Positions 4,121 to 62,656 of a stretch of 64,000 bases of DNA are shown piece by piece. The translations under genes and the position numbers were made by a program. The DNA lies in NCBI RefSeq assembly GCF_000702905.1, contig NZ_JNKR01000001.1:1-64000 (forward strand). Reading direction: 5' to 3'. Origin of the DNA: Mitsuokella jalaludinii DSM 13811 (GTDB lineage: Bacteria > Bacillota > Negativicutes > Selenomonadales > Selenomonadaceae). Each line of letters begins with the position of its first letter. Within the stretch, counting starts at the first letter, position 1. The notes under the pieces were generated by a model. The model saw only the letters and a list, made by a program, of their open reading frames with translations. It was not told the origin of the DNA and ran no database searches.

Positions 4121-4146
4121 TATTGTTGCAACACAAAGAAAAACAG

Positions 4147-5555: not shown

Positions 5556-5616
5556 TCGGGTCGCCGATTGTCGTATACTAGGGATAGAGAGGATTCTGTG
5601 ATGCGGAGGTGATGTT

Positions 5617-6327: not shown

Positions 6328-6331
6328 AAAA

Positions 6332-6376: not shown

Positions 6377-6381
6377 TCCGT

Positions 6382-6609
6382 TCAGCAGGAGCTCTCTCCC
6401 CAGACGGGGTGGCGGGCGGGCTTGAGGCTCCGCACGCGGATGAGGCGCAGGGCCTCGTGCATGTCGATGTCTTCGCGCATGCCGTCTGCTTCGTAGACGC
6501 AGACGGGATCCTTGACGCCGAGCTCACTGCCCGGCATGTAGACGTATTCGCTGTTTTCAGGGTCGCCATAGATGACGCCGACCCTGAGTTTCGATTCGGC
6601 AAGTACCAT
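6382..6609 (-). CDS. Small hypothetical protein downstream of corA
   Basis: 75 residues. The ATG at 6609 is preceded by AGGAGG, so the longer upstream frame is not used. The protein is soluble, beginning VLAESKLRVGVIYGDP and containing EYVYMPGSELG and a charged C-terminal half. It follows corA after an 11-bp gap and shares its terminator, so both are one transcript. A link to Mg2+ or metal handling is inferred only from position. Family unknown. Confidence 0.7.
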   Translation of the reverse strand: MVLAESKLRVGVIYGDPENSEYVYMPGSELGVKDPVCVYEADGMREDIDMHEALRLIRVRSLKPARHPVWGESSC

Positions 6610-6620
6610 GGTTCTCCTCC

Positions 6621-7574: not shown

Positions 7575-7594
7575 GGATAGAATCTCCTTTCCAC

Positions 7595-7646
7595 GGGGAG
7601 ACTCCTGCCCGCTGCGCTTACCGGCAGGCCATGGAGATCACTCCCC
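7595..7646 (-). promoter_or_regulatory. Structured 5' leader of corA
   Basis: In the leader just before the corA ribosome site, GGGGAG (7595-7600) pairs with CTCCCC (7641-7646), and inside it CCTGCC (7604-7609) pairs with GGCAGG (7623-7628). A separate hairpin AGCTGCC/GGCAGCT followed by TTTT lies at 7746-7764. The arrangement could be an attenuator or metal-sensing leader. I could not match it to the M-box or yybP consensus. The rest of 7575-7894 shows no gene. Confidence 0.4.
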
Positions 7647-7894
7647 CACTTGTATCACATCGTTTGGGATCTATCGCACTAGGGTGATCGTCCATGATCT
7701 CACCAGCCTTTCTTCTCTGTCACTTGATTCTCACAAGAAAAATGCAGCTGCCGCACGGGCAGCTTTTCCGAACTTCATTATATTACCAACGCCGCAATCT
7801 TGTCCAGCATCCGCGTGTAAAAAATGTGTTAAACCGCGCAGAGAAGGATTTCACCCCAAAAAGGCGAATCCATCCAATGAAGGAGTGATGAAAC

Positions 7895-8317
7895 ATGGAA
7901 TACAAGAATATCGACAGCCAGCACATCCTCGTGCGGCTCGACCCGAACGACGAGATTGTCACCTCGCTGATGCAGGTCGCCAAGGAAGAGAAAATCGAGC
8001 TCGCCATGGTCCAGGGGATCGGCGCCGTCAAGAAGGTCGTCATGGGCGTCTACAACGTGCCGGAGCAGCACTACAAGGCCAACACCCTAGAGGGCGCCTT
8101 CGAGATGCTCTCGCTGACGGGCACGATCGACACGATGGCGGGCAAGCCCTACAGCCACTTCCACATCGCCGTCGGCGACGAGCAGGGCGCAGCGCACGGC
8201 GGCCACCTCAACGAGGCCATCATCAGCGCGACGGCCGAGATCGTCATCACGAAGCTCGCGGGCAGCGTCGACCGCCGCAAGAGCGAGGAAACGGGCCTGA
8301 ACATCTGGAAGTTCTGA
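7895..8317 (+). CDS. PPC/DUF296-domain DNA-binding-like protein
   Basis: A 140-residue single-domain protein of the PPC (DUF296) family, related to the domain found in plant AT-hook proteins and in small prokaryotic trimers. The family core is present: AMVQGIGAVKKVVMGVYN and the metal-binding-like HFHIAVGDEQGAAHGGHL (about residues 88-105), where His residues are conserved. The bacterial role is not settled. It is followed after 35 bp by a PanE-type reductase, and both probably share a transcript ending at 9306. Confidence 0.85.
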   Translation: MEYKNIDSQHILVRLDPNDEIVTSLMQVAKEEKIELAMVQGIGAVKKVVMGVYNVPEQHYKANTLEGAFEMLSLTGTIDTMAGKPYSHFHIAVGDEQGAAHGGHLNEAIISATAEIVITKLAGSVDRRKSEETGLNIWKF

Positions 8318-8352
8318 TTTCCTCCCGAGGTCCGATCAGAAAGGAATCCCTC

Positions 8353-9294
8353 ATGAATACCACAAATCTGAAATTCGCCATCTTCGGCGTCGGCGGCACG
8401 GGCGGCGTCATCGGCGGCTATCTCGCAAACGCCGGCAACGATGTAACGTTCCTCGCGCGCGGCGCGCACCTCGCCGCCATGCAGAAGGACGGCCTGACCA
8501 TCCACACGAATCATCGCGGCGACATCCGCATCAAACCGTGCCAGGCGATGCTCGCAGACGATTACCATGACACACCCGATGTGCTCTTCATCTGTGTCAA
8601 GTATTACGGACTCGACGCTGCCATCGCGCTCACGCGCCGCATCGCGGGCCCTGACACGCTCGTCATCCCGATCCTCAATGTCTTCGGCACGGGCGCCGTC
8701 ATGCAGGAAAAACTGCCCGGCAAGACGGTGCTCGACGGCTGCATCTACGTCTTTGCCAAGCGCGGAGGCCCCGGCATCATCGAGCAGCCGCAGGAAATCC
8801 TGCGCGTCTTCTACGGCTTCCGCCCGGGACAGTGTGACCGTCTCGCCCCGAAAGCTGCTGCACTCGAGAACATCATGCGCGCGGCTGACATCCACGCCCA
8901 TTTCACCGAAGACATCCAGCGCGATGCCCTGACGAAGTTCTCCTTCGTCTCACCGATGGGTGCGGCTGGCCTCTACTTCGGCGTGACGAGTGAGGCATTT
9001 GGGGAGAAACCGGAAGTCCGCGAGACCTTTATCGGCCTCATCAAAGAAGTCGAAGCCGTCGGCCACGCCATGGGCATCACCTTCGACCGCGACCTCGTCG
9101 CGACCGACCTGCGGCTCATGGACGCCTTCGCGCCGGGGCTCACGACCTCGATGCAGCGCGACGTCGCCGCGGGAGGCCCGTCGGAATTTAAAGGTCTCGT
9201 CTCACGCATCGTCGAACTCGGCGAGAAGTATCACGTACCAACCCCGCTCTACCAGAAAATCAACGACTGGGGCAAGGCCCAGGGGCTTGCCTGA
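8353..9294 (+). CDS. 2-dehydropantoate 2-reductase family protein (PanE/ApbA)
   Basis: A 313-residue NAD(P)H-dependent ketoacid reductase. The Rossmann motif FGVGGTGGVIGGYLANAG is at residues 9-27, the family's ALTKFSFVSP segment carries the catalytic-type Lys, and SMQRDVAAGGPSEFKGL matches the C-terminal signature with substrate-binding Ser/Glu. PanE makes pantoate for coenzyme A, but many family members reduce other ketoacids, so substrate is not certain and no pan gene is adjacent. I chose the ATG at 8353, behind AGAAAGGA, instead of the much longer upstream frame, which only overlaps the preceding gene. Confidence 0.88.
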   Translation: MNTTNLKFAIFGVGGTGGVIGGYLANAGNDVTFLARGAHLAAMQKDGLTIHTNHRGDIRIKPCQAMLADDYHDTPDVLFICVKYYGLDAAIALTRRIAGPDTLVIPILNVFGTGAVMQEKLPGKTVLDGCIYVFAKRGGPGIIEQPQEILRVFYGFRPGQCDRLAPKAAALENIMRAADIHAHFTEDIQRDALTKFSFVSPMGAAGLYFGVTSEAFGEKPEVRETFIGLIKEVEAVGHAMGITFDRDLVATDLRLMDAFAPGLTTSMQRDVAAGGPSEFKGLVSRIVELGEKYHVPTPLYQKINDWGKAQGLA

Positions 9295-9305
9295 ATCTAG
9301 ATAAA

Positions 9306-9346
9306 AAAGCCCTGCTCCTTCCATATATAAGGAACAGGGCTTTTTA
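9306..9346. terminator. Bidirectional terminator between panE-type gene and DUF362 gene
   Basis: AAAGCCCTG-TCCTT pairs with AAGGA-CAGGGCTTT, with A-runs on one side and T-runs on the other, between two convergent stop codons. Confidence 0.9.
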
Positions 9347-9357
9347 TTTCGCTGAAA

Positions 9358-10464
9358 TTACGCTTTGAACGGCTTTACATTCTTCACGGCTTCGGCCAGC
9401 GTGATGGGCGTATCCCCATGATCCATATCGAGAATGACATAGCGGTCGCAGCCCATGCCAAGTTCTTTCATATAGCTGAGCTGACGCAGGCCATGGCGGG
9501 TTTCCATGCGCTCGACGAGGTCGTGGCGGTATTTTTCCGGCAAAGCATAGACGAGGTCAACAGATGCTTGGTCGGCTGCGAGAATATCCGTCGAAGCGAG
9601 AATGCCGATATTCGGCGTGACGACCGGCTGAGCCGCCGTACCTTCGCAGTCACACGAAACCGACATGTTGCGCAGCACGTTGATGTAGGCAATGTGGTCG
9701 CCAAAATGGTCAGCCGTTGCTTTCGCAGATTCAGAGATACGCTCCATGAGTTCTTCCTTACTGATGCCCCACTGCGTACCCGTATCGCCGGTATGAATCA
9801 TCTTCTTGCCGATGCGGCCGTCGGCGCAGCCAATGCCGATGTTCTTGTTGGAACCGCCGAAGCCGCCCATCGTATGGCCCTTAAAATGCGTAAGGACGAG
9901 CAGCGAGTCGTAATTCAGCATGTGCGAGCCCACAGACATTTCCGTGAACCATTTGCCGCCCTTGACCGGCAGCATAGCCGTGCCCTCTTCATCCATGATA
10001 TCGACCGGCGCAAAATCCCAGCCGTTGACAGCCAGCGTCTTGCGGTGTTCGGCCGTCGTATAGCGCGCGCCCTGATAATAGGTATTCGTTTCGACAATAT
10101 TGGCTTTCGGCAGTTTCTCTGCTATAAGCGTCTTGACCCACGGACGCGGGATGATGTTCGGGCCGTGCGGCTCGCCCGTATGCAGCTTGATGCCGACTTT
10201 GCCCGTCATATTCTGCGCAATGGCATCGTACGCCTTGAGCAGGCCGGCCGCAGAAAGATCCCGCGTAAAATATACGACAGCCTCACCGCCCTGACGCTGG
10301 GAAGGTGCTACATAATGGTCGCCGCCCTCTGCCGCCTTCGGTGCTGCAGGAGCATCTGCCGTCTCTGCCAGTGAAGTCTTATGCTGCCAAAGACTGCCTG
10401 CTGCTGCCGTCGCCATCGCAATTCCGGCCATTTTTACAAAATTACGTCTTGTCATGCCTTTCAT
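9358..10464 (-). CDS. DUF362-domain exported protein with Tat signal
   Basis: 368 residues. The N-terminus MTRRNFVKMAGIAMATAAAG is a twin-arginine signal, so a folded, probably cofactor-bearing protein is exported. The DUF362 domain starts with VYFTRDLSAAGLLKAYDAI and includes VGIKLHTGEPHG, LTHFKGHTMGGFGGSNKN and a CADGRIGKK segment. DUF362 proteins often bind or sit next to Fe-S clusters; here only scattered Cys are present and no ferredoxin domain. It lies downstream of a flavodoxin remnant and the CMD/cupin genes, consistent with a redox role. Precise function unknown. Confidence 0.85.
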   Translation of the reverse strand: MKGMTRRNFVKMAGIAMATAAAGSLWQHKTSLAETADAPAAPKAAEGGDHYVAPSQRQGGEAVVYFTRDLSAAGLLKAYDAIAQNMTGKVGIKLHTGEPHGPNIIPRPWVKTLIAEKLPKANIVETNTYYQGARYTTAEHRKTLAVNGWDFAPVDIMDEEGTAMLPVKGGKWFTEMSVGSHMLNYDSLLVLTHFKGHTMGGFGGSNKNIGIGCADGRIGKKMIHTGDTGTQWGISKEELMERISESAKATADHFGDHIAYINVLRNMSVSCDCEGTAAQPVVTPNIGILASTDILAADQASVDLVYALPEKYRHDLVERMETRHGLRQLSYMKELGMGCDRYVILDMDHGDTPITLAEAVKNVKPFKA

Positions 10465-10500
10465 GATAGTACCCCTTCCTAACGTATCAGTAAAATAAAG

Positions 10501-10677
10501 TTAAGCGGAAACAGACTTGGAAACGCTGACGCGGCTGCCTTTATTATGGTAGTCAAGGTCTGCCTCTGTATACTCAGGATCTGCCTCAATTTTCATGATA
10601 TCAGCATTCTTGGCCTTTGCTAAGTCCTTAGCGACCTGTTCCGTACGGCCTGTATTCGAATAGTAAATACTGCCTCA
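10501..10677 (-). pseudogene. Flavodoxin, N-terminal fragment
   Basis: The frame opens without a start after a TGA and reads YYSNTGRTEQVA, the flavodoxin FMN phosphate-binding loop. It continues KDLAKAKNADIMKIEADPEY and ends early at a stop at 10501. The extreme N-terminus and everything after about residue 65 are missing. Intact flavodoxins of this type shuttle electrons. The remnant lies between the DUF362 and CMD genes, so this cluster has lost its electron carrier here. Confidence 0.75.
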
Positions 10678-10729
10678 TAAATTTCTGCCCATCTGCTCGA
10701 TCATATCGCCAAATGAGAAATGATGCAGC

Positions 10730-11188
10730 TTATTCTGCGTAAACTTCTTTGGCGTAACGGAACGCCGCCCACGCCTTGGGCCAGCCGCCGTAAAAGCCGA
10801 CCTGCGTGATGATTTCAGCCATCTCGGCCTTCGTCACGCCATTTTTCTTGGCCTCACCGATATGGTATTTGAGCGAGCTATCCGTGATGCCCTGTGCAAT
10901 AAGTGCTGAAACCGTCACGATGCTGCGGTCATGCAGCGAAAGCACATCATTTTTGCTCCAGACCTCGCCGAAAAGGATATCATCGTTATAGCGCGCAAAG
11001 TCCGGTGCAAAATCGCCGAGCTGGTTGCGTCCGGCCGTCTGCACGATTTTGACGGCCTTTTTCTGCGTTTCTGTTTTGCCATGATTCTGTTCCATTGCAC
11101 TTGCCTCTTTCATCGAAAAACCACTGCCCAAAAGCATGATACCTGCCAGTAGGGCAGCCATGACTTTCATCTTGCCACTCTGTTTCAT
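10730..11188 (-). CDS. Carboxymuconolactone decarboxylase-family protein with signal peptide
   Basis: 152 residues from the ATG at 11188, which has an AAGGAG site; the longer frame adds 16 unlikely residues. A signal peptide (AALLAGIMLLGSGFSMKEASA) directs export. The mature domain is the all-helical CMD/AhpD-like fold: LGDFAPDFARYNDDILFGEVW, then LHDRSIVTVSALIAQG and HIGEAKKNGVTKAEMAEIIT. There is no CxxC peroxidase pair. Such proteins are often paired with cupins in redox or aromatic-acid clusters. Here the cupin gene lies 31 bp upstream in the same unit. Substrate unknown. Confidence 0.88.
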   Translation of the reverse strand: MKQSGKMKVMAALLAGIMLLGSGFSMKEASAMEQNHGKTETQKKAVKIVQTAGRNQLGDFAPDFARYNDDILFGEVWSKNDVLSLHDRSIVTVSALIAQGITDSSLKYHIGEAKKNGVTKAEMAEIITQVGFYGGWPKAWAAFRYAKEVYAE

Positions 11189-11219
11189 TTTATTTTTCTC
11201 CTTATTTTTCTCCCGGATT

Positions 11220-11639
11220 TCATGGCAGTGCATCATAGGCAGCCGAGTCTACGGGCTCGCACCATTCGTTGCTCGTCTCCTCGCCCGGTACCTCGATGGC
11301 CAGATGCTGGAACGCACTGTCTTTGGCTGCGCCATGCCAGTGCTTGACTTCCGGCGGGATGTTGACGACATCGCCGGCCTTGAGTTCTCTTGCCGGTTTT
11401 CCCCATTCCTGATACCAGCCGCGGCCGGCCGTGACCAAAAGGATCTGGCCGCCGCCCGATTCGGCATGGTGGATATGCCAATGATTGCGGCAGCCCGGTT
11501 CAAACGTTACATTGCCGACATAAACCTGCTGCAGCGAGAGTCCATTTAAATAACTCTTGCCATCAAAATACTGTGCGTAATTGACATTTTCCCCGCCGAT
11601 GGCAAAGGGACTTGCCTGCTTGATTTCATCGAGTGTCAT
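11220..11639 (-). CDS. Cupin-domain protein
   Basis: A 139-residue single cupin barrel. Motif 1 reads NHWHIHHAESGGGQILLVTAG with the two or three metal-binding His and a later Gln/Glu position. Motif 2 reads LKAGDVVNIPPEVKHWHG with the second His pair. Such small cupins bind a divalent metal and act as isomerases, dioxygenases or sensors. Its ATG overlaps the stop of the upstream 69-residue gene (ATGA), so translation is coupled, and the CMD gene follows. It is cytoplasmic, whereas its CMD partner is exported. Function within the pair is unknown. Confidence 0.88.
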   Translation of the reverse strand: MTLDEIKQASPFAIGGENVNYAQYFDGKSYLNGLSLQQVYVGNVTFEPGCRNHWHIHHAESGGGQILLVTAGRGWYQEWGKPARELKAGDVVNIPPEVKHWHGAAKDSAFQHLAIEVPGEETSNEWCEPVDSAAYDALP

Positions 11640-18024: not shown

Positions 18025-18993
18025 TTATTTGAGGGCATCGCCGAGTTTTGCGTTCGTGTTGCGAGCAGCCTGAACGCTCTCTTCGAATTTAGCCTTCTCG
18101 TCGCCATCGAGCTTGATCTCGACGATCTTCTCGAGGCCGTTCTTGCCGAGGATGCACGGTACGCCGATGCAGAGGTCCTTCTCGCCATACTCGCCTTCGA
18201 GGTAGACGCAGCACGGGATGAGCTTCTTGGCATCGAGGGCGATGGCTTCAACCATCGTAGCAGCTGCAGCGCCCGGTGCAATCCAAGCGGACGTGCCAAG
18301 GAGCTTCGTCAGCGTAGCGCCGCCGACCTTCGTCTGAGCGACAACGTCGTCGAGTGCTTCCTTGCTCAGGAGCTGCGTTACAGGGATGCCGCGCAGCGTT
18401 GCATAGCTGACGAGCGGAACCATCGTCTTGTCGCTGTGGCCGCCGATGACCATGCCATCAACGTCAGCCGGCGTAGCCGGATAGCCAGCCTTCGTCAGAG
18501 CCTGTGCGAGGAAATAACGGAAACGGCTGCTGTCGAGCATGCCGCCCTGGCCGAGGATGCGGTTGCGCGGAAGCTTCGTGTCCTTGAGCGTCAGGAACGT
18601 CATAGCATCCATCGGGTTGGAGATGATGATGAAGTAAGCATTCGGGGAATACTTGAGGGCCTGGTCAACAACGCTCTTGACGATCTTAGCGTTGACGCCG
18701 ATGAGATCCTCACGGCTCATGCCCGGTTTGCGCGGCATACCAGACGTGACAACGACAACATCAGAACCAGCCGTCGGAGCATAACCTTCCGGATCGTTCG
18801 GCAGAGCCGTAACGCCCGTTACCGTCGTGTCAAAGTTCAGCATGTGAGCCGTCTGCATGATATCCATGGCCTTGCCCTGCGGAACGCCTTCCTTGATATC
18901 AACAAGAACAACCTCGCTGCAGAACTTCTTCGTAGCAAGAACGTTTGCGACCGTTGCACCAACATTACCTGCACCAACAACTGTTACCTTCAT
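18025..18993 (-). CDS. mdh: Malate dehydrogenase (lactate/malate dehydrogenase family)
   Basis: 322 residues, NAD-dependent interconversion of oxaloacetate and malate, a step of the succinate-propionate route these bacteria use. The NAD-binding site is TVVGAGNVGATVANVL; the substrate loop MPRKPGMSR has the Arg that marks malate rather than lactate specificity; SNPMDAMT and the catalytic GGHSDKTMVP His follow. The start at 18993 has an AAGGAGG site. It is monocistronic: own promoter at 19103-19131, a leader of about 100 bp, and its own terminator. GC content and codon use look like a highly expressed core gene. Confidence 0.94.
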   Translation of the reverse strand: MKVTVVGAGNVGATVANVLATKKFCSEVVLVDIKEGVPQGKAMDIMQTAHMLNFDTTVTGVTALPNDPEGYAPTAGSDVVVVTSGMPRKPGMSREDLIGVNAKIVKSVVDQALKYSPNAYFIIISNPMDAMTFLTLKDTKLPRNRILGQGGMLDSSRFRYFLAQALTKAGYPATPADVDGMVIGGHSDKTMVPLVSYATLRGIPVTQLLSKEALDDVVAQTKVGGATLTKLLGTSAWIAPGAAAATMVEAIALDAKKLIPCCVYLEGEYGEKDLCIGVPCILGKNGLEKIVEIKLDGDEKAKFEESVQAARNTNAKLGDALK

Positions 18994-19102
18994 AATAAAT
19001 TGCCTCCTTATAGTTTGAAAGCGACATTCTGAGCAACCTGTCAGAAACCGCCTTCGGAATGCCAACAAAGTATGCATCAGACTTATGATTCATTACGTGT
19101 AA

Positions 19103-53098: not shown

Positions 53099-54563
53099 AC
53101 ATTTTTGAGGCATCATCAGTTTGTGTGGAGAAATTCCCAGCCTGCTAAGTAGCTTCATAATCCCATGGTAACCTTACATCAATGTCGGAGCAGCGGAGCA
53201 TAATCATATCAATCATGTTGTCTATATTACGAAATCCGTAGGCCATGTAAACGGATAGCTTGATTTTCCGATTGGTCGCCTCCAGTACGGCGTTGGACAG
53301 ATGATGCTCCATTGTTGCCAGTATGGCATCGTAGTGACGGCGTATTTTCCGTTGGAGCTCGACAAACACATTGATGCGACAGTGCTGAGCCCATTTAATC
53401 CATCCGTCCAGTTCTTTCTTGGCGATAGCGACATTCTCGCACTGGAAAACAAGACGGAGTTTCTCTTTTAGCAGATAGGCACGATACAGCCGCTTGTCAG
53501 CCTTGGCAATGAATTCAAGCTGAGCTTGCTGTTTCTTGGTGAGATGCTCCGGAGCCTTTCCCAGAGCAAACCGAGAGCCTTTCAAGTCTTTGGCTGTGGT
53601 ATCTTTCTTGGGACGACCGCGTTTCTTCGGAGTCTTATCTGCTGGATTCCTCAAGGCATCACGCCATGCTAAACGACGCACCTCGTCAAGGGCTTCAGTA
53701 GCCCACTGTACAACGTGGAACGGGTCAATGCATCGCTTGGCTACCGGACAAAAATCGTTGATGCATGCCTGAATCCATTTGGCACCATCACCAGATACAA
53801 GCTGTATATTGGCCAGTTGTTCTTTGCTCAGCAGCTTGAAGAACTTGGTGAAAATGGTCTTGCCATGTCCTTCATGAGCCCAGATAACCTTACCTGTGTC
53901 ATGATTGATGACCACCGTTATGTACTTGTGTCCCTTCTTGTAGCTGGTTTCGTCAACGCCTATGCGGACAAGTCCCACGAAGTGTGCGGCTGGATTTGCA
54001 TCAAGTTCAGCCCGCATCCTGCTAATGATAGAGCCGATGGTATTCCAAGAAATCCTGAGCAAAGAGGCAACAGCGGTTTTCGTGCAGGACAAGGAGAGCC
54101 AAGTGGCCAGCTCCTCAAATTCCTTTGTAAAACGGGACTTATGCCTTGCCCAAGGAACAGATGCCGTAACGACCCCATGTTTGGGGCACATGACACGATG
54201 TATATCTGCTACAATATAGACTTTGTGGGTATTCCAGTCGCAAGCCCGCCAAGAACGGGTGCCACCGCGGCCATTGTCATAGTGGACAGATTTTCTGCCA
54301 CATATGCCGCAACGGCATTGTTCGTCTTTGGTAGGATGTGCCTTGATGACAATTGTTCCATCTGGCAAAATTTTCATGTCATCTATAGCGGTATGCTTGA
54401 CATTTAGGATTGATTTGAGTATCTTTTTGGTGAGCATACATTTCCCCCGTACGATGTGTTTTTTAGCCGAAAATATCGTACAGGAAAATGTATGCTTTTT
54501 CAATGGTCATAAGGGATGGGAAGAGTTAGTTCCCCACACATTCTGATGGAGTGCCACATTTTT
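53099..54563 (-). mobile_element. Complete ISL3-family insertion sequence with 8-bp target duplication
   Basis: The element runs from 53107 to 54555. Its ends are an imperfect inverted repeat of about 26 bp (GAGGCATCATCAG... and GGCACTCCATCAG..., sharing ATCAG, TGTGTGG and GAA), and both sides carry ACATTTTT (53099-53106 and 54556-54563). An exact 8-bp duplication is the ISL3 rule. Ends and target site are intact, so the insertion is recent and probably active. It landed at the very 3' end of an hsdS remnant. Confidence 0.92.
53145..54437 (-). CDS. ISL3-family transposase
   Basis: 430 residues from the ATG at 54437 behind GGGGG; the longer frame adds 22 unlikely residues. The zinc-finger N-terminus has CRCGICGRKSVHYD and a second Cys pair near VMCPKHGVV, then the DDE catalytic core: GVDETSYKKGHKY (first Asp), LVSGDGAKWIQACI (second Asp) and the C-terminal NAVLEATNRKIKLSVYMAYG with the Glu. 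It is full length and uninterrupted, so it should be functional. Confidence 0.95.
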   Translation of the reverse strand: MLTKKILKSILNVKHTAIDDMKILPDGTIVIKAHPTKDEQCRCGICGRKSVHYDNGRGGTRSWRACDWNTHKVYIVADIHRVMCPKHGVVTASVPWARHKSRFTKEFEELATWLSLSCTKTAVASLLRISWNTIGSIISRMRAELDANPAAHFVGLVRIGVDETSYKKGHKYITVVINHDTGKVIWAHEGHGKTIFTKFFKLLSKEQLANIQLVSGDGAKWIQACINDFCPVAKRCIDPFHVVQWATEALDEVRRLAWRDALRNPADKTPKKRGRPKKDTTAKDLKGSRFALGKAPEHLTKKQQAQLEFIAKADKRLYRAYLLKEKLRLVFQCENVAIAKKELDGWIKWAQHCRINVFVELQRKIRRHYDAILATMEHHLSNAVLEATNRKIKLSVYMAYGFRNIDNMIDMIMLRCSDIDVRLPWDYEAT

Positions 54564-54755: not shown

Positions 54756-56054
54756 TTATTTCACCTCAGCAGCACCGAACGGACGGCCCTCGTTGAAATT
54801 GCGGGCGTTCTCCATCGTCACCGTCGCGATGGCCTGCAGTGCCTCGCGCGTAAAGAATGCCTGATGGCTCGTGAGGATGACCTGCGGGAACATGAGCAGA
54901 CGGCCCGTGACATCCTCCGTCGGGACATCGAAGCTGTGGTCCGTGTAGACATTGGCATCCTCGCCCTCGTAGACGTCGAGCGCAACCGCATGGAACTTGC
55001 CCTTCTTGAGCGCGGCAATGAGCGCTTCCGTATCGATGAGGCCGCCGCGTGCAGCATTCGTGAGCATGACATCGTCCTTCATGAGGGAGATGGCCTTCTC
55101 ATCGATGAGATGATACGTGCCGCCTTCGCCCATGATGAGCGGTGCGTGAATGGAGATGAGGTCAGAGCGCTTCAGGACCTCTTCCTTCGAAGCATAGGTG
55201 AGCAGACCCTCTTCCTCGAGCTTCTTGTTCGGGAATGCATCCCAGCCGATGACCGTCATGCCGTAGCCCTTGCAGATGCGCGCCATGCACTGGCCGATGC
55301 GGCCCGTGCCGAGGATGCCGGCGACCTTGTTGTGGAGATCGACGCCGAGCAGGCCCGTGAGGTCGAAGTTGTTGTCGCGCACCTTGTTGTATGCCTTGTG
55401 CAGGCGGCGGTTTGCAGCCTGCAGCGTCGCCATGGCATGCTCTGCCACTGCGTATGGGGAGTAAGCCGGTACGCGCAGGACCGTGATGCCGTACTCGGCA
55501 GCGGCCTTCTTGTCGACATTGTTGAAGCCGGCGCAGCGCAGGAGGATCAGTCGGACACCGCCGTCATGCAGCTGCTCGATGACAGAACGCGGTGCCTCGT
55601 CGTTGACGAAGATGCAGACAGCGTCATAGCCGTTGGCGAGGTGTGCCGTCTCATCCGTCAGGCGGCTCGAGAAATACTTGAGTTCGACGTTGTACGTGCC
55701 CTCGCCCTTGTCCTTTGCGAGCTCGCTGAAGTAGAGGCGGTCATAGTCTTTCGTGCCGAAAAAGGCGACCTTGAGGACAGAGCCCTTCTTCTCCTTCGGG
55801 CCCATGGCATCGAAAACAGCCTGGATCTGCTGTGCAGCCTCTTCCTCATCAGGGCCGTCCACGGTGACATTGACCGTTGCGCCTTTCGGGGCGTGGAGGT
55901 TCAAGATCTCCAGCACGTTGTTGCCCTGGGCAGTCTCATTATCGACCTCGAGCGTCACCGCCGCCCGCAGGTTGCTGCATGCCTGCGCGATCTGAGCTGC
56001 GGGACGCGCATGGATACCGATTGAGCACTTCACGACGACTTGGAATTTTTTCAT
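54756..56054 (-). CDS. HPr phosphocarrier domain fused to D-lactate dehydrogenase
   Basis: 432 residues from the ATG at 56054 (GGAGG nine bases before). Residues 1-88 are a full HPr domain: GIHARPA with the phosphorylatable His exactly at 15 and Arg17, then a helix and a second region where the regulatory Ser46 is replaced by Asn (QGNNVLEILNL). A short linker leads into a complete D-2-hydroxyacid dehydrogenase from about residue 94, with Rossmann GILGTGRIGQ, catalytic Arg336 in NAARGGL, Glu363 in DVYEGE and His397 in SHQAFF, each shifted by about 100 relative to free D-LDH. It likely reduces pyruvate to D-lactate under phosphotransferase control. Promoter and terminator are its own. Confidence 0.9.
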   Translation of the reverse strand: MKKFQVVVKCSIGIHARPAAQIAQACSNLRAAVTLEVDNETAQGNNVLEILNLHAPKGATVNVTVDGPDEEEAAQQIQAVFDAMGPKEKKGSVLKVAFFGTKDYDRLYFSELAKDKGEGTYNVELKYFSSRLTDETAHLANGYDAVCIFVNDEAPRSVIEQLHDGGVRLILLRCAGFNNVDKKAAAEYGITVLRVPAYSPYAVAEHAMATLQAANRRLHKAYNKVRDNNFDLTGLLGVDLHNKVAGILGTGRIGQCMARICKGYGMTVIGWDAFPNKKLEEEGLLTYASKEEVLKRSDLISIHAPLIMGEGGTYHLIDEKAISLMKDDVMLTNAARGGLIDTEALIAALKKGKFHAVALDVYEGEDANVYTDHSFDVPTEDVTGRLLMFPQVILTSHQAFFTREALQAIATVTMENARNFNEGRPFGAAEVK

Positions 56055-56089
56055 TGATAAGATCCTCCCCAAAAAATGCGGTACATTTA

Positions 56090-56140
56090 TCGTATTGCTA
56101 ATACGATTATACGACGCCGCGCGTGTGAAAGCAATAACAT
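56090..56140 (-). promoter_or_regulatory. Promoter and operators of the HPr-lactate dehydrogenase gene
   Basis: On the minus strand TTGCTT, a 17-base spacer and TATAAT (56106-56111). A perfect inverted repeat, TCGTAT-5-ATACGA (56090-56106), overlaps the transcription start. Over the -35 box the 18 bp at 56123-56140 (GTGTGAAAGCAATAACAT) resemble a Rex site. Redox control by Rex together with an unknown second regulator is a reasonable reading. Confidence 0.6.
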
Positions 56141-56240
56141 ATTTGCAGTCCTCTGCACTTTTTTGAGCGACTGTTACCGAGATTGGCTAGTTGTGACTGC
56201 CTGATGGGTATCCCGTGAACTTCTTCCCTGTCTATAACTC

Positions 56241-56291
56241 TGTGGATTTCCTGTGGATATCCTGTGGATAAGTTGCGGCAGGTGTGGATAA
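56241..56291. promoter_or_regulatory. Cluster of four DnaA-box-like repeats
   Basis: TGTGGATTT (56241), TGTGGATAT (56252), TGTGGATAA (56263) and TGTGGATAA (56283) lie in the same direction at 11, 11 and 20 bp spacing, that is on one face of the helix. The last two equal the perfect DnaA box TTATCCACA. No dnaA or dnaN is near, so this is not oriC as such. The remainder of 56142-56463 holds no gene; 56369-56399 has a weak hairpin followed by T's on the minus strand. Confidence 0.75.
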
Positions 56292-56463
56292 TTTGACGAA
56301 CTGTCCCGGTTTATGGTTCAGGATATGATCAGGCTGTGTCCGCTCTGTGTTCCTATGTGACATAGTAAAAAGCCGCAATCCGTTGGCGCACAAGGCTTCC
56401 GAGCTCCCCTAAGACAAAGACAAAGCAAAGATAAAGAAAGAGTAACGTAGTAGCGAGCAAGGC

Positions 56464-56491
56464 TCAGCGATGGCGCAGGTAGCACGGGATG
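56464..56491. repeat. Left direct repeat of the hsd island (att-like)
   Basis: These 28 bp match 62657-62684 in the same orientation with only two differences (core CAGCGATGGCGCAG and AGCACGGGATG identical). The copy begins right after the hsdS stop codon. On the minus strand it still reads IPCYLRHR-stop, echoing the end of the symporter gene at the other copy. This is the pattern of attachment sites around an integrated element. Confidence 0.7.
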
Positions 56492-57775
56492 TCACGCCCC
56501 AAGTTCCCCATGGAACGCTCGCGCGAGGATTGACTGCTTCATGCTGTCGATGGCTACCAGCACCGACTCCGCCGACTGTCGGACTTCTTCTTCCCTGCCG
56601 AGCAGTCGGTCGAGGATGGCGACAATCTCTTGCTGCTCTGGAAGTGATGCCATCGGTATCGTTAACTGACGCAATCCTTTTATTGGAACCGTCAGTTGTG
56701 CCGTGCCCTTGGCAATTCTTGTAGCCTCTCGATAAAAATCCTTCTCTTGCAAGGCGTACCAAAGATACCTTTGCAGAATAACATCTTCCTTCGGCTTCAG
56801 CAAAGCCATGTGGCGCTGGAAACAAAACGCCTGGTCCGTGTCGACTAACACAGGAATCCCATACGTCCCGACCAATGTGTAGAGCACATCACCTGATTCC
56901 GGCTTACGCGTGTCGGTCAATTTGTCATAGTAGTCCTGCGGAACAAACCGCGTCTCCGAAAAATCGAGTTTACCTTTGTTCACATTCGAGATGACCAAGA
57001 ACGGAATGCCTCTACTTGATTTTGGCGGCGGCATGTGATCACCGTCAAAGATGCTCTTGCAGACATCAGCTAATGGCACGCTTTGATATACGTCACCCGT
57101 CACACCTCGTGCTTCACGCCATTTCGCTGTCAGCTTACCTGCAAATGCATCGTGCAGCAGCGCAGCCTTGCGCGTTTCATGGGCGTCGAAGACAGACTGC
57201 ACCTTTGCCTTGGCAGCATCGAGCTTGGCAAACAACGACTCAATGCGCGCCACAAGGCGCTGCTGCTCAGATACCGTTGGATATGGAACAGGCATGTCTG
57301 AAAGAACTTTTCCGGTGACTTGTAAAAAAGTACTACCTGTCGCATGCTCATATAGATAAGATTCTGACTGAATGAGATAGTATCTGATCCAGTCGACTGC
57401 TCCTGCAATGGTTCGTATGCCTGCCACGCCACGGCCTAAACAATACTCACCATCAGATACAACAGGTCGCCCCAATGTTGCGCGGATACATAAAACCAAA
57501 TCATTTTTCCTAGAAAGTTTTGTCACTACCTTTGTGTATTTATGGGGAGTAAGTTCCTTAGCCCCCATATCAGCAGCACCGCCAATCAGTGGCGTATACG
57601 AGCTATCATCCGTTGTATCAAATCCACGCGGCGACTGTCCCATGATGATATCAGACAAGCCATCGAGTCTTACCCACTTCCATCCCTCTGGCAACTCATA
57701 CGGCTGCTCTTCCTCTGGCACAAGGGCGGCGGCAAGGCGTTCTTCTGGTGTCATTTCTTTCTTGTTCTTGGCCAT
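56492..57775 (-). CDS. hsdS: Type I restriction enzyme specificity subunit HsdS
   Basis: 427 residues from the ATG at 57775; the far longer frame only reads through hsdM. Two target-recognition domains (about 25-180 and 225-360) each open with the LADVCKSIFDGDH or LDGLSDIIMGQSPRG type of strand and are joined by conserved helices (EQQRLVARIESLFAKLDAAK and PEQQEIVAILDRLLGREEEV). These two halves read the two parts of a split DNA target. The last 30 residues are duplicated in a remnant 1.9 kb away. It follows hsdM after one base. Confidence 0.95.
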   Translation of the reverse strand: MAKNKKEMTPEERLAAALVPEEEQPYELPEGWKWVRLDGLSDIIMGQSPRGFDTTDDSSYTPLIGGAADMGAKELTPHKYTKVVTKLSRKNDLVLCIRATLGRPVVSDGEYCLGRGVAGIRTIAGAVDWIRYYLIQSESYLYEHATGSTFLQVTGKVLSDMPVPYPTVSEQQRLVARIESLFAKLDAAKAKVQSVFDAHETRKAALLHDAFAGKLTAKWREARGVTGDVYQSVPLADVCKSIFDGDHMPPPKSSRGIPFLVISNVNKGKLDFSETRFVPQDYYDKLTDTRKPESGDVLYTLVGTYGIPVLVDTDQAFCFQRHMALLKPKEDVILQRYLWYALQEKDFYREATRIAKGTAQLTVPIKGLRQLTIPMASLPEQQEIVAILDRLLGREEEVRQSAESVLVAIDSMKQSILARAFHGELGA

Positions 57776-57776
57776 G

Positions 57777-59192
57777 TCACTTCTCCTTTGCGGCGCGCAG
57801 TTCGTCGGCGACTTCCCGCAGGAGCTTGGCGGCTTCTCGAAGGCTGGCGATGGCGCTCTCGGCGCTCTCGACGGGGTCGGGCAGGTCTTCGTAGTCGATG
57901 ATGGAATCGTCTTTGATGAGGCCGAGGTCGAGGCTGTCGTCTTTGGCGGCGATCTCTTCGCGCGTGTACGAGTGCCAGCGCTCGTCCTCGACGCTGTGGC
58001 GGTCGGCGGCCTCATAGGCCTTGACGAAGCCCGCGAAGTCCTCGCGCTTGAGCGGGTGCGTCTTGCCGAAGGACGGCATGTTCGTGCGCAGGTCATAGAA
58101 CCAGACTTCGTGCGTGTTCCCCTGGTCGGACGTGCCGCGCGTAAAGAAGAGCACGTTTGTCTTGACGCCCTGCGCATAGAAGATGCCCGTCGGCAGGCGC
58201 AGGATGGTGTGCAGGTCGCACTTCTCCATGAGGTCGCGGCGGATGGCCTGACCGTCGCCGTCGGCGAACAGGACGTTGTCGGGCAGGACAACGGCGGCAC
58301 GCGCTCTGCCGTTTGCCTTAAGGCTGCGGTAGATGTGCTGGAGGAAGTTGAGCTGCTTGTTGCTCGTCGTGTAGGTGAAGTCGTCGCGCGTCGCGCGCTC
58401 GCCGCCCTTCTTCGTGCCGAACGGCGGATTCGTCAGCACGACGTCGTAATCCTTGAAGCGCTTGCCGAAGTCCGAGAGCGTGTCGCCAAGGTAAATCGGG
58501 CCATCGATGCCGTGCAGCATGGCGTTCATGAGCGCGAGGCGGTGCGTGTCGTGGACGAGCTCGCAGCCGGAGAAGGCTTCCTCGACTTCGAAGTTGGCCA
58601 GCTCCTCGGTGAGGTCGGCGTAGTCGTCCGTCATGTCCCTGACGTACTGCGCAGCGGCAATCATGAAGCCGAACGTGCCGCAGGCCGGGTCGTTGCAGCG
58701 CTCGCCGGGCTGCGGCTTCACGAGACGCGTCATGACGTCGATGAGCACGCGCGGCGTGAAGTACTGGCCCGCGCCGGATTTCTTCTCGTTGGCGTTCTTC
58801 TCGAGCAGTCCTTCATAGAGGCTGCCGAGCCCCTCTTCCTTGGCGGAGAACCAGTCGAGCTCGTCGATGCTCGTGATGATCTTCTCGAGGTTCTTCGGCT
58901 CGTCGATGTTTGTCGCGGCTCCGGCGTAGATCTCGCGCACGCGGCCCTGCGTCTCTGTGCCAAGCTTGTCGAGGACTTTCTTGTAGTGGTTCTTGAGGTC
59001 GAGGCCGCGCAGGTCGCGCAGCGCATCCCAGCGGCAGTCCTCCGGGATCGGATCCTCGGTGTACGTCTCCTTCGCCATCTTGAGGAAGAGGATGTAGGTC
59101 AGCTCCGTCACATACTGATGATACGTGATGCCGTCGTCGCGCAGGACGTTGCAGAGATTCCAGAGCTTCGCTACGATTTCTTGTGTGTTCAT
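57777..59192 (-). CDS. hsdM: Type I restriction enzyme methyltransferase subunit HsdM
   Basis: 471 residues, N6-adenine methyltransferase of the RM complex. AdoMet motif I is DPACGTFGFMIAA (about 165-177), and the catalytic NPPFGTKKGG lies at about 254. The N-terminal helical domain opens with IVAKLWNLCNVLRDDGITYH. Length and order match the EcoR124/StySKI-like families. Its start overlaps the hsdR stop (ATGA), so the three subunits are translated together. Confidence 0.97.
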   Translation of the reverse strand: MNTQEIVAKLWNLCNVLRDDGITYHQYVTELTYILFLKMAKETYTEDPIPEDCRWDALRDLRGLDLKNHYKKVLDKLGTETQGRVREIYAGAATNIDEPKNLEKIITSIDELDWFSAKEEGLGSLYEGLLEKNANEKKSGAGQYFTPRVLIDVMTRLVKPQPGERCNDPACGTFGFMIAAAQYVRDMTDDYADLTEELANFEVEEAFSGCELVHDTHRLALMNAMLHGIDGPIYLGDTLSDFGKRFKDYDVVLTNPPFGTKKGGERATRDDFTYTTSNKQLNFLQHIYRSLKANGRARAAVVLPDNVLFADGDGQAIRRDLMEKCDLHTILRLPTGIFYAQGVKTNVLFFTRGTSDQGNTHEVWFYDLRTNMPSFGKTHPLKREDFAGFVKAYEAADRHSVEDERWHSYTREEIAAKDDSLDLGLIKDDSIIDYEDLPDPVESAESAIASLREAAKLLREVADELRAAKEK

Positions 59193-62100
59193 GCGGATTT
59201 TCCTCCATCGTCATAGTCGTCATAAAGGTAGGTGTTGAGCTTGTCGATCACTTCCGCCAGATGGCCGTCGAAGATCCTGTCGTAGCGCGGCTGGCCTCCG
59301 TCTCTCCTGAAACGGCTGTCGTCGCGGAACATCTGCATGCCGATGACGTAGTTCTCGTCGGCGAGGAAGTATTTCTCGATCTTGCGCAGGACATTCTCCT
59401 GCGGCTTGGTCAGCTTGCCATGATGGCGCAGCTCGTCGATCAGGCGGCTGACGGCACCATGGATGCGCTCTTCGTGGCTCTTCAGCGGCGTGCCGATCGT
59501 CGCACGGCGAATGAGGCTGATGATGTCGGCCGTGACGGCTGCGCCATCGCCGCCCGCGATGGCGTCGGAGAGCTGGCGCTCGGTGAAGTGGAGCGCGCTG
59601 AGCTGCTTGCGCAGGCTCTTGAGGTCCTGCACGGTGAGGTCCTGCGGCCGCGTGCAGATGATGTTGAGCGCCTCGACCTTGTCGCGGTTCTCGCGCACCC
59701 ATGCGGTGAAGGACTCGAGGTAGTCCTCCGGCCGCGTCTCGCCCTCGCCGTAGCCGTGGTAGACCCTGGTGACTTTGTCGGTGTGGTCGTCGATGACGAT
59801 GCCCTTGCGCGTGTGGTGGATAGACTCGAGCGCCTCGATGGCGGCACGGTTCGCCAGGAGGACGGTGCGCGCCTGCTCGGGCTGCATATCCTTCACCGCA
59901 TTGATGAAGGCGGTCAATGAGGCAGGTGCTTTCCCGTCGATGGCGAGCGAGGCGGCGGCCTCCTTGTCCTGTGACGTGTCGAGCAGTTTGCTCTTGCGGC
60001 GCAGCCGGCCCGTGAAGCGGCCGAGGCGCGCGCTCAGTTTCTTCTGGCGCAGCGCGCTGTCAGCGGCCAGCGATGCCTCTTCGAGGCCGTCGAGCAGTTT
60101 TGCGAATGTCTCCTTGGGGTTCGCTGCGACGGGCTTCATGTCGCTGACCTTCTCGAGCGCGGCATACGTGCCGACGGGGTCGTAGATGTCGAAGGCCGCC
60201 TTGTGGATGGCGGGACAAAGTCGCGTTGCGCGGCCGAGCATCTGCTCGAAGAGGATGCGCGACTTGACGCGGCGCAGGAAGACGAGCGTCGTTATTGCGG
60301 GGACGTCGATGCCCGTCGTGAGCAGGTCGACCGTCACGACGATGCTCGGATACGCTTCATTCTTGAAGTGCTGCACGGCCTCGCGTATCTTCTTCTGGTT
60401 GCCGTTCTCGATGGTGCCCGTGATCTTGCGGATGGCATCGGCCGGTGCCATGCCTTCATAGAGCTCCCTGAGCAAGCGCACGATGAGGTCGGCGTGCTGG
60501 TCGTTCGCGGCGAAGATCATCATCTTCCCCTGCGAGGGCTCCGTCGGGTCGAAATTCTTGGCAATCTCCTTGAGCACTTCCCGGTTGAAGTTCTCGGTGA
60601 TGACCTTGCGATTGAAGTCATCGATGTCGAAGTCGAGCTCGTCCTCGAGCTGCGCGCCATTGAGGAGTTCGCCCGTCTCCGGGTCGATCATCGCGACCTG
60701 CTCCCCCTTCTTGTAGTGGATGCCCTTCGTCGAGAGCTCCGTCTCGATGTGGATGGGCGCATTGTGGTCGACGAGGTAGCCGTCGACGACGGCCTCGCGG
60801 TAGGAATACGTGAAGACGGGCGCGCCGAAGATCTGCGTCGTGTGCAGTGCCGGCGTGGCCGTCAGCGCGATCTTCACGGCGTCGAAGTACTCGACGACAT
60901 TGCGGTACTTGCTCAAGTAGTCGCGCTGGTCGCGGTAGAGGGCCGCGTCCTCGCTCATATCGCGGTCGAGGATGTAGCCGCGGTGCGCTTCGTCGATGAT
61001 GACGAGGTCGAAGTCCGTGACAGCTGGCATCGACTCGCCTTCCTGATAGAGGATGCGGCGCACGAGGCTCTGGACCGTCGCGATCTGCACGCTCGTCTCA
61101 CGCTCGATGGCGGCATCGTCGGCGATGCCCTGGACGTTGTAGATCTGTGTGAGTGTCTGGAGCTCGGCGAGCTTGACCTCGCGGAAGGTGTCCTCTGCCT
61201 GTGAGCCGAGGACGTTGCGGTCAACGAGGAAGAGGATGCGGCGGAAGCGCCGCGTCTTGAGGAAGCGGTAGATCAGCGCGAGGACCAGGCGCGTCTTGCC
61301 CGTGCCGGTTGCCATCGCGAGCAGCATCGAGGTCTGTCCGTCAGCGAGCGCCTGCTCGACGGCCTCGACGGCCCTTATCTGATAGTCGCGCAGGCTCAAG
61401 CCCTGCGGGTCGCGCAGTTCGTCGTAAGGCTCGGCGGCGAGTCGCTTCTCCCCTTCTGACTTGTCGTGTTTCAGGAGCGCGAGGATGCCGTCTGGCGACA
61501 CCCAGCCGTGCAGGACGTGCGGGATGTTCATCGGATCGCGCAGGTCCTGGAACCAGATGCCCGACTTCTCCTTGTACTGCTCGATGTAGGGACGGCCGTT
61601 CGTCGCAAAGATGAACGGCACCTGATAGTCGCCCCACTTGCCAACGGTGTACGGAGCCGCGCCCTCGGCGACCGTGGCATAGCGCTTGCCCTGACCGTCG
61701 AGGACGGCGGAGACATCCTTGTACTCAGCCTTCGCCTCGACGACGGCGACCATCTTCTCGCCGCAGAACAGGGCGTAGTCGACGGGGCCCGTGCACGTCG
61801 GCCACTCGGCGATGGCGATGTTACGCCCTTTCTGCGGCCGCGTGCCCGCGCTGTGGCGCAGGTGTTGCGTGTCCGCCTCCCAGCCGACGCGGCGCAGCTG
61901 CTCGTCGATGAGCAGGCGCGTCTCGGCCTCACTCTTGTAGCGGTGTGCAGCCGCAAGGTTCGCGCGCTTCTGGCGCTTCTCGCGCGTCAGCCGCTCTGCC
62001 GAGGCCGACTCGATGGCCTTGGCCGCCACCTCTTCGTCATGGGCCGCTTCTTTCCGGCGTTCCTCGGCCGTCTCGCGCGCCTCCATGACCTCCGGCGGCA

Positions 62101-62497
62101 CGAAGTCGCGGTGCTCGTAGTGGTAGTCGCCGTACGTCTCGTAGAACCACTCTGCCAGCGTGTAAGCAAGCGGCAGCAGTACCTTGCAATCCTCGACCGA
62201 CTCATAGCTCTCGTGGACGGCGAGGTTGCGCTTCTTGCGCAAGGCGTGCAGGATGGCCGTGAGGTCCTGCGTGATGTAACCCTCGCGCTCGAGCAGGTTG
62301 ATGCGGTGCACGGCGTCATCCTTCAGCGGGTGCTCGATATCGTCGATGTCGTAGATGAGCTGGACGACCGTCTCCCCGATCATGCCGAGCTTCATGAGGC
62401 AGGCATTCGCGTCCGACTGCCAGTAGCGCTCCGCCTGCTGCCCGAAGCGCGCGAGCACCGGGAAATGTTCGGCCAAGAACGAAAAGTTTGATTCCAT
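59189..62497 (-). CDS. hsdR: Type I restriction enzyme endonuclease/translocase subunit HsdR
   Basis: 1102 residues from the ATG at 62497. After an N-terminal DUF4145-like helical domain (1-130), a PD-(D/E)xK nuclease lies at about 225-275 (GPVDYALFCGEKMVAVVEAK). The helicase motor follows: Walker A MATGTGKTR (about 392-400), DEAHRG (about 504), LTATPA, and the GxGRATRL motif VI. A C-terminal helical region binds the methylase. It should translocate and cut unmethylated DNA. All motifs are intact, so the system looks functional. Confidence 0.96.
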   Translation of the reverse strand: MESNFSFLAEHFPVLARFGQQAERYWQSDANACLMKLGMIGETVVQLIYDIDDIEHPLKDDAVHRINLLEREGYITQDLTAILHALRKKRNLAVHESYESVEDCKVLLPLAYTLAEWFYETYGDYHYEHRDFVPPEVMEARETAEERRKEAAHDEEVAAKAIESASAERLTREKRQKRANLAAAHRYKSEAETRLLIDEQLRRVGWEADTQHLRHSAGTRPQKGRNIAIAEWPTCTGPVDYALFCGEKMVAVVEAKAEYKDVSAVLDGQGKRYATVAEGAAPYTVGKWGDYQVPFIFATNGRPYIEQYKEKSGIWFQDLRDPMNIPHVLHGWVSPDGILALLKHDKSEGEKRLAAEPYDELRDPQGLSLRDYQIRAVEAVEQALADGQTSMLLAMATGTGKTRLVLALIYRFLKTRRFRRILFLVDRNVLGSQAEDTFREVKLAELQTLTQIYNVQGIADDAAIERETSVQIATVQSLVRRILYQEGESMPAVTDFDLVIIDEAHRGYILDRDMSEDAALYRDQRDYLSKYRNVVEYFDAVKIALTATPALHTTQIFGAPVFTYSYREAVVDGYLVDHNAPIHIETELSTKGIHYKKGEQVAMIDPETGELLNGAQLEDELDFDIDDFNRKVITENFNREVLKEIAKNFDPTEPSQGKMMIFAANDQHADLIVRLLRELYEGMAPADAIRKITGTIENGNQKKIREAVQHFKNEAYPSIVVTVDLLTTGIDVPAITTLVFLRRVKSRILFEQMLGRATRLCPAIHKAAFDIYDPVGTYAALEKVSDMKPVAANPKETFAKLLDGLEEASLAADSALRQKKLSARLGRFTGRLRRKSKLLDTSQDKEAAASLAIDGKAPASLTAFINAVKDMQPEQARTVLLANRAAIEALESIHHTRKGIVIDDHTDKVTRVYHGYGEGETRPEDYLESFTAWVRENRDKVEALNIICTRPQDLTVQDLKSLRKQLSALHFTERQLSDAIAGGDGAAVTADIISLIRRATIGTPLKSHEERIHGAVSRLIDELRHHGKLTKPQENVLRKIEKYFLADENYVIGMQMFRDDSRFRRDGGQPRYDRIFDGHLAEVIDKLNTYLYDDYDDGGKSA

Positions 62498-62549
62498 TGT
62501 ACAAGCCCCCCCTCTGCTGACTTTGACGGTCAAGTCCTATCAAACAACA

Positions 62550-62580
62550 AGAGCCCCCGCCGTGAGAGACAGCAGGGGTT
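62550..62580 (-). terminator. Terminator after the sodium:solute symporter gene
   Basis: GAACCCC-type and GGGGGCTC-type arms pair across a loop and are followed by T-rich sequence on the minus strand, between the symporter stop and the hsdR start. The 62498-62656 interval otherwise shows only an 11-bp palindrome, TTGACGGTCAA (62522-62532), near the hsdR start. Confidence 0.6.
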
Positions 62581-62656
62581 CCTGAATATCTTCATCATCT
62601 TGTTAATTATTCCACAGAAATTTGAAAAACCCTGCCTGCGCTGCTTTGACGAGTCA

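Follow-up and report, generated by a model that had tools for sequence, protein, structure and literature searches.

On the minus strand of the window, the whole 64,000-nt stretch of Mitsuokella jalaludinii DSM 13811 DNA that we analysed, a single open frame of 432 codons encodes HPr (residues 1-84), a short linker and a complete LdhA-type D-lactate dehydrogenase (LDH). The features of this gene are listed in Table 1. A preliminary description of the locus had given the same coordinates for one frame devoid of internal stops, and these are right: the frame runs from ATG to TAA and specifies 432 aa. The translation also contains His15 within a GIHARPA motif and Asn at position 46, as that description had it. 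The offset of about 100 that it reported for all three catalytic residues is 101, as R336, E365 and H397 correspond to 235/264/296 in Lactobacillus D-LDH, the numbering that we took as the base of the assignment.

Table 1. Coordinates of the fusion gene, its parts and upstream elements, and of a further dehydrogenase gene in the window
Feature	Position	Strand	Basis
Fusion gene HPr-linker-D-lactate dehydrogenase	54756..56054	-	ATG (56052-56054) to TAA, 432 aa; Pfam domains
HPr domain, residues 1-84	55803..56054	-	PF00381 and TIGR01003 over cut-off; structure match
His15 codon, predicted phosphorylation site	56010..56012	-	Invariant in 106/106 fusions
Asn46 codon, position where HPr kinase would need Ser	55917..55919	-	Residue counts in 106 fusions
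Linker, residues 82-93	55776..55811	-	Alignment length; lower model confidence
D-lactate dehydrogenase (LdhA type), residues 94-432	54759..55775	-	PF00389/PF02826; structure match
Catalytic Arg336	55047..55049	-	Kept in 105/105 sequences reaching Arg336
Catalytic Glu365	54960..54962	-	Kept in 105/105 sequences reaching Glu365
Catalytic His397	54864..54866	-	Kept in 104/105 sequences reaching His397
Ribosome-binding-site-like GGGGAGGA, 8 bases 5′ of ATG	56063..56070	-	Read by eye from the sequence
Promoter-like TTGCTT-17-TATAAT	56106..56134	-	Read by eye from the sequence; block recurs in related Selenomonadaceae loci
Probable malate dehydrogenase, the genome's sole L-LDH/MDH-type gene found	18025-19077	-	Profile scores

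The HPr half matched Pfam PTS-HPr over residues 3-81 (74.2 bits; cut-off 23) and TIGR01003 (73.9 bits; cut-off 47.9), and it has the open-faced beta sandwich fold together with His15 and Arg17. The dehydrogenase half matched 2-Hacid_dh over residues 111-425 (104.3 bits; cut-off 24.6) and 2-Hacid_dh_C over residues 209-399 (155.9 bits; cut-off 25.1), and both domains come with the catalytic Arg/Glu/His and the LdhA fold. The D-LDH models of NCBIfam, which are narrow models rather than a definition of the fold family, stayed below their cut-offs, the best being vanH_gen with 191.4 bits (cut-off 540), while two D-LDH models gave 172.3 bits (cut-offs 356 and 579). The Pfam scan found no further PTS domain in the fusion, such as the EI or EIIA that stands beside HPr in multiphosphoryl transfer proteins.

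Structure prediction is consistent with these assignments. The HPr part alone was modelled with a pLDDT of 95.2 and the element order E-H-E-E-H-E-H. Compared with solved structures, this model reached a best Z of 15.9 (rmsd 1.1 over 84 residues), in agreement with Foldseek, and the top 37 rows of the search were HPr, Crh or NPr chains, followed by an unrelated row at Z 5.6. AlphaFold predicted the whole fusion with a pLDDT of 86.5 and a pTM of 0.78, with lower confidence for the linker region at residues 81-90 (block mean 73). Residues 94-429 best matched E. coli LdhA (5z1z; Z 32.5, rmsd 3.7 over 313 residues). The dehydrogenase half showed 42-45% identity across the first eight structure-match rows, and 44-45% to E. 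coli LdhA 5z1z and the Fusobacterium nucleatum enzyme 5z21.

An ISL3-family transposase gene (53145-54503, minus strand) lies between the fusion and a PAS/GAF-GGDEF gene, and type I restriction-modification genes for specificity, methylase and EcoEI-like R subunits are located upstream of the fusion (~56200-62650). In M. multacida (L056), the transposase stretch is absent and sequence matching the GGDEF gene follows the fusion, apparently twice; the restriction-modification genes are not at that place, and sequence matching the window from 62657 onward is found close to the fusion. Of the window ORFs that we read, none next to the fusion was recognisable as a PTS gene. Apart from the fusion, no ORF cluster was present in more than 11/80 loci, some of which are short, and one cluster at 11/80 loci is an antisense frame overlapping the fusion.

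We also scanned up to 300 bases upstream of the 106 fusions described below for what we take to be the Rex box consensus. Rex-like boxes were found upstream of 8 fusions at up to two mismatches vs 0.4 expected, and of 23 at up to three mismatches vs 3.8 expected. Because these rows are related, the enrichment is only a lead towards possible Rex or redox control of the fusion. The window's own Rex-like site (within 56085-56140) overlaps the -35 box with 5 mismatches and is common to related Selenomonadaceae promoters. A perfect palindrome, TCGTATTAGCAATACGA, is located just 3′ of the -10 box and is intact in none of six related promoters.

Distribution and descent of the fusion

The fetched loci contained 137 fused frames, from which 31 duplicates were dropped. 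The remaining 106 distinct sequences, from 74 named and 32 unnamed loci, share the same architecture. Full length is reached by 104, whereas L016 breaks off at a contig end and L032/L060 carries an internal deletion. Identity is at least 99% in 15 pairs. Subsets served for the first alignment (83 sequences), the structure alignment (55), the HPr model (33) and the trees (46 representatives). The linker is 12 residues long in 96/106 fusions and 11-14 residues in the others. In a tree of 91 rows, 46 of them fused, which was built by a quick method and carries long-branch warnings, the fused LDH parts form one clade (SH-aLRT 100) that lies within the unfused Lachnospiraceae D-LDHs. The fused HPr parts likewise form one clade (99/95; 46 of 80 rows) in a tree of few columns that also carries long-branch warnings.

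Two-gene versions occur in two other species, as would suit a sequencing or assembly error that joined two genes here. The 106 distinct fusions, the near-constant linker length and the single clade rule out such an error, or a chance joining, to the point that we attach a negligible probability to it. Therefore, the HPr-D-LDH fusion put forward in the preliminary description is real.

Two of the sequences deviate. In L032/L060 (G171; Selenomonas bovis RUG10837), residues 368-398 are deleted in frame and the catalytic His397 is lost, so that this is either a dead enzyme keeping its HPr or an assembly error. L016 (G002:C78:2-883) is a second, contig-end copy that comprises residues 1-294 and is 96% identical to the window protein; G002 also has a full copy, and the second one reflects either duplication or an assembly effect.

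Among named genomes, 148 relatives were confirmed, and the reading as fusions rests on the best 80 of the 148, each of which matches residues 1-431 or 1-432. The carriers among these 80 bear names such as Lachnospiraceae, Erysipelotrichaceae, Sharpea, Faecalibacillus and Lactimicrobium, and a few are Selenomonadaceae. The Selenomonadaceae in the named scan include Mitsuokella multacida and Selenomonas montiformis, and Sharpea azabuensis DSM 18934 carries the fusion as well (L110). In the whole-genome search, the fusion was found in 9/189 genomes of the window's family, which are the only carriers among the 380 genomes of its class. Within Lachnospiraceae, the family of Lachnospiraceae bacterium KH1P17, 11/299 genomes have the fusion, and another 32 matches reached E 1e-100 or better. 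In the order of S. azabuensis, presumably Erysipelotrichales, 70/294 genomes have the fusion, with matches that extend into HPr, and there are 3 further partial matches. The window's class as a whole does not share the fusion; most copies found are in Lachnospiraceae and Erysipelotrichales. Of the conservation across Negativicutes that had been raised earlier, what stands is presence in 9/380 genomes, and these are confined to the window's own family. The plasmid search matched 2642 records, all below 60% identity and 7 of them covering at least 80% of the query; no fusion was recognised among the matches listed (eight of the 2642 plasmid records), which start at query residue 56-96.

Selenomonadaceae copies sit inside the fused LDH clade. 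Since this clade is nested among Lachnospiraceae enzymes, the trees suggest that Selenomonadaceae likely acquired the fusion by transfer, and perhaps twice, because L033 is apart from the window's copies in the LDH tree. In L057, L058, L060 and L028, homology to the window comprises the gene and ~130 bases upstream, ending at ~56185 (the flank of L028 is only 1.5 kb), and in L059 it is restricted to the fusion gene, while M. multacida (L056) has common flanks. Homology limited to the gene and a short upstream stretch suggests that the fusion may have moved as a small unit, and it is probably mobile.

The split form in the two other species consists of an HPr gene directly before a D-LDH gene, at L177:3273-4640 (G231) and in L215 (G787). 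In G231, the LDH gene starts with its own GTG after a ribosome-binding-site-like sequence. Both split-pair HPrs have Cys for Pro18 and Gln at position 46. The split-pair enzymes cluster in the LDH tree with the unfused enzyme L178, whose 8-kb stretch has no HPr, and the HPr tree places the split-pair HPr as a weak sister of the fused HPrs (97/68). The split pair may thus be the ancestor, the product of fission or a separate pairing. As far as gene order goes, HPr-LDH pairing occurs in two physical forms, fused and as adjacent genes.

Conservation of the two halves and the host cell

Gly13, His15, Ala16, Arg17 and Pro18 are invariant in all 106 fusions. Position 46 is occupied by Asn in 91, Asp in 11, Ser in 2, and Arg and Glu in 1 each; the Ser46 typical of HPr-kinase-regulated HPr is Asn in the window and is lost in 104/106. 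The two Ser46-bearing fusions, L033 and L183, are among the most divergent, with 62-63% identity to the window protein. Overall, the HPr half varies more than the dehydrogenase half (mean entropy 1.36 vs 0.58 bits in 83 sequences). Within HPr, the positions that we scored as the EI-contact face, presumed from E. coli HPr, are better conserved than the remainder (mean entropy 0.78 vs 1.59 bits; permutation p 0.002), also when positions 15-18 are left out (p 0.016). The median dN/dS was 0.086 for HPr (16/21 pairs) and 0.049 for LDH (21/21 pairs) in seven Selenomonadaceae copies, and 0.14 (15/28) and 0.040 (13/28), respectively, in eight others; pairs were dropped if dS was zero, failed, or was 2.5 and over. 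These ratios indicate purifying selection on HPr and LDH alike.

Set against 31 relatives that are unfused or split, the fusions show characteristic residues, Trp271 and Tyr201 among them, and short inserts of their own at 118-121 and 308-310. An internal start for a free LDH was considered and rejected, Met84 being present in only 11/106 fusions.

The faster evolution of the HPr half would suit a passive tag, which serves stability, the oligomer interface or expression and has no PTS role. The exact retention of H15, A16, R17 and P18 in 106/106 fusions is unexpected for such a tag, however, and makes this explanation quite unlikely in our view.

The preliminary description had also asked whether free HPr and free LdhA exist alongside the fusion. 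Free HPr does: in the window's genome, Enzyme I adjoins a free HPr bearing Ser46. In a 33-genome search, all 25 genomes with the fusion also had another HPr-family frame that exceeded the Pfam cut-off; in two of the frames that were read, L194 and L195, position 15 is Glu. It follows that the fusion is probably not the cell's general phosphocarrier. As to free LdhA, no second LdhA-like enzyme was seen in the window's genome. The other strong D-2-hydroxyacid dehydrogenases there are SerA and a 322-residue enzyme, and the sole protein of the L-LDH/MDH type is by score a malate dehydrogenase (379.3 bits; cut-off 283) rather than an L-LDH (231.8 bits; cut-off 303.55). Hence no LdhA-like enzyme other than the fusion was seen in this genome, three weaker PF02826 matches over the cut-off aside. 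No L-LDH/MDH-type protein was found in 7/13 other fusion hosts.

The HPr half keeps its phosphotransfer site, which would also allow control in the reverse direction: binding of NADH or pyruvate to LDH would alter phosphate acceptance or donation by HPr, and sugar uptake or a regulator would thereby respond to redox state. Phosphate transfer by an HPr domain within a fusion is known from IIA-HPr-EI proteins, according to the passages cited from PMC2405797. The separate HPr-family frames in all 25 fusion genomes searched argue against this coupling, as do the lack of a recognised PTS gene beside the fusion in the window ORFs read and of any neighbour in more than 11/80 loci, and we consider it very unlikely.

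A search for HPr kinase, which B. subtilis has, found none in the window's genome and none in the 13 Selenomonadaceae covered, of which 8 carry the fusion and 5 lack it; the B. subtilis control was also silent. With a second model, the window's genome again gave none, 0/9 Selenomonadaceae exceeded the cut-off and the B. subtilis control was silent again; G181 (Selenomonadaceae) had a match of 19 bits (cut-off 240). Because the control was silent with both models, absence of HPr kinase from the window's organism is likely on these searches, not proven. HPr kinase was found in 13/13 fusion hosts outside Selenomonadaceae, and the second model was over the cut-off in 7/8 non-Selenomonadaceae, the exception without a match being G231 (split pair), while G787 matched. 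Escape from HPr kinase, as envisaged in the preliminary description, therefore hardly applies to the window's organism, where no kinase was detected and Asn46 is probably inherited and neutral; it can apply in the source lineages, with the kinase in 13/13 hosts.

The window's genome encodes a second HPr fusion outside the window (G000:C10, L004:6180-7862), a protein of 560 aa with HPr, PAS, sigma54 activator and HTH domains. Its gene is directly upstream of ptsH and ptsI, and its HPr, the third of this genome, keeps His and Arg and has Val in place of Pro18. HPr-matching frames 563-586 aa long are present in 5/9 other Selenomonadaceae, and a frame of 406 aa in a sixth.

Proposed coupling of pyruvate reduction to the phosphotransferase system

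Enzyme I phosphorylates HPr at His15, with PEP as the donor and pyruvate as the product, and pyruvate is presumably the substrate of the fused dehydrogenase. The simplest reading of the sequences, and a plausible one, is that a target of HPr has been fused to its HPr, whereby the PEP/pyruvate ratio and sugar flow would set LDH activity. The fusion would then be a fermentative D-LDH that carries an HPr domain of its own for sensing, a proposition for which we find belief and doubt evenly balanced.

In the first step, Enzyme I would very probably phosphorylate His15 of the fusion from PEP, and the phosphate could pass on; consequently, the state of the fused HPr would follow the PEP/pyruvate ratio and PTS sugar flow. 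In the second step, which may equally well hold or fail, the phosphorylation state of His15 would control the dehydrogenase in cis. As for the direction, the likelier guess is that the unphosphorylated form would be active, when sugar is arriving and pyruvate is high, and the phosphorylated form restrained, when there is no sugar and PEP is high. The outcome would be that pyruvate reduction follows PTS uptake. In E. coli, dephosphorylated HPr builds up during glucose transport and binds MtlR only in this form (passages cited from PMC5320558). In the third step, loss of Ser46 would fairly probably free the domain from HPr kinase in kinase-bearing lineages.

We favour the in-cis switch because H15, R17 and P18 are invariant in 106/106 fusions, the EI-contact face is more conserved and the dN/dS of HPr is low. 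Further reasons are that the fused rows are monophyletic in both trees, that the pair exists as adjacent genes in two species, that Enzyme I and free HPr are encoded in the fusion's own genome and that HPr acts on enzymes in trans. In E. coli, HPr directly regulates PykF, PfkB, NagB and Adk in trans, as stated in the passages cited from PMC8167557, and there are structures titled as glycogen phosphorylase with HPr (entries 9s8b/9s8k). The Selenomonadaceae copy without His397 counts against the switch, as does the lack of a conserved neighbourhood backing a PTS link. Moreover, the split-pair HPrs with Cys18 and Gln46 indicate that related domains tolerate change at these positions.

The main rival to the in-cis switch is docking with pyruvate capture. 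Here, the HPr domain would hold the dehydrogenase at Enzyme I, where phosphorylation by PEP sets pyruvate free; removal of pyruvate as D-lactate would pull the reversible EI reaction forward and re-oxidise NADH at the site of sugar entry, and it would suffice for His15 to bind, or to be phosphorylated incidentally. Stronger conservation of LDH than of HPr would also fit a looser domain that serves only for docking, and the conserved face is the one that we presumed to contact EI. Binding of HPr to EI is transient, however, free HPr competes for it, and binding alone would not demand an invariant His15. Enzyme I turns PEP into pyruvate, and its reaction also runs backwards in vivo in E. coli (passages cited from PMC5290146), as docking would exploit. 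PTS genes and the S. azabuensis D-LDH gene are highly expressed in the Sharpea-rich sheep rumen in the passages cited from PMC5069950, and strain DSM 18934 carries the fusion, but another strain was mapped there and we infer that the expressed gene is the fusion. On this balance, we regard docking as unlikely.

Both parts of the protein and the principle of HPr-enzyme contact are known, and the covalent joining of HPr and D-LDH is the new element. The fold and the His15/Arg17/Pro18 site are common to the fusion and general HPr (PF00381, TIGR01003); general HPr is unfused, whereas the fusion carries HPr on an enzyme, has Ser46 replaced in 104/106 and is probably not the main HPr. The whole enzyme with its catalytic Arg/Glu/His is shared with LdhA of E. 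coli (5z1z) and F. nucleatum (5z21), which lacks the N-terminal HPr that the fusion adds. Crh, an HPr-like protein of Bacillus, is a specialised second HPr like the fusion, but with the opposite residue pattern, as it keeps Ser46 and lacks His15. Multiphosphoryl transfer proteins (IIA-HPr-EI; passages cited from PMC2405797) likewise have HPr as a domain of a larger protein; the partners there are PTS phosphotransfer domains, whereas the partner in the fusion is a metabolic oxidoreductase. Regulation by HPr in trans (9s8b/9s8k; PykF, PfkB, NagB and Adk, PMC8167557, both as cited above) is a candidate parallel in that the PTS state is read through HPr, but it involves two proteins in reversible contact, whereas the contact in the fusion is covalent and one to one.

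A search of the open-access full-text literature gave no description of an HPr-LDH fusion, in line with the preliminary description, whose author knew of none; subscription papers or domain databases may list the architecture without remark. The cited passages of a 2008 study on HPr evolution (PMC2405797) describe HPr fusions with EI and IIA domains, and the words lactate and dehydrogenase are absent from its text.

Taken as a whole, the fusion may be a one-protein circuit that spread horizontally among gut and rumen fermenters, in which EI-phosphorylated HPr would set D-lactate production in proportion to PTS sugar entry. EI, HPr and LDH would possibly act as one pyruvate-handling unit, and the circuit would have shed HPr kinase control so as to answer to the PEP/pyruvate ratio alone. 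We advance this full picture tentatively, with rather more doubt than belief. An HPr-enzyme contact known in trans has here been fixed covalently by evolution, with the phosphorylation site kept in every copy read and the kinase site dropped in nearly all, and the fusion offers a clean system for testing PTS gating of a fermentation enzyme.

The passages cited from PMC5069950 describe a 'd-lactate dehydrogenase gene' of S. azabuensis as highly expressed and 12-fold up in low-methane sheep, and all S. azabuensis reads there went from 937 to 11372 RPM, about the same rise. As the two rises match, they give no evidence of gene-specific induction. The carriers of the fusion include rumen lactate producers; because the S. 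azabuensis D-LDH gene is highly expressed and a genome of this species carries the fusion, the fusion, if it is a switch, may have a bearing on acid load and hydrogen flow in the rumen.
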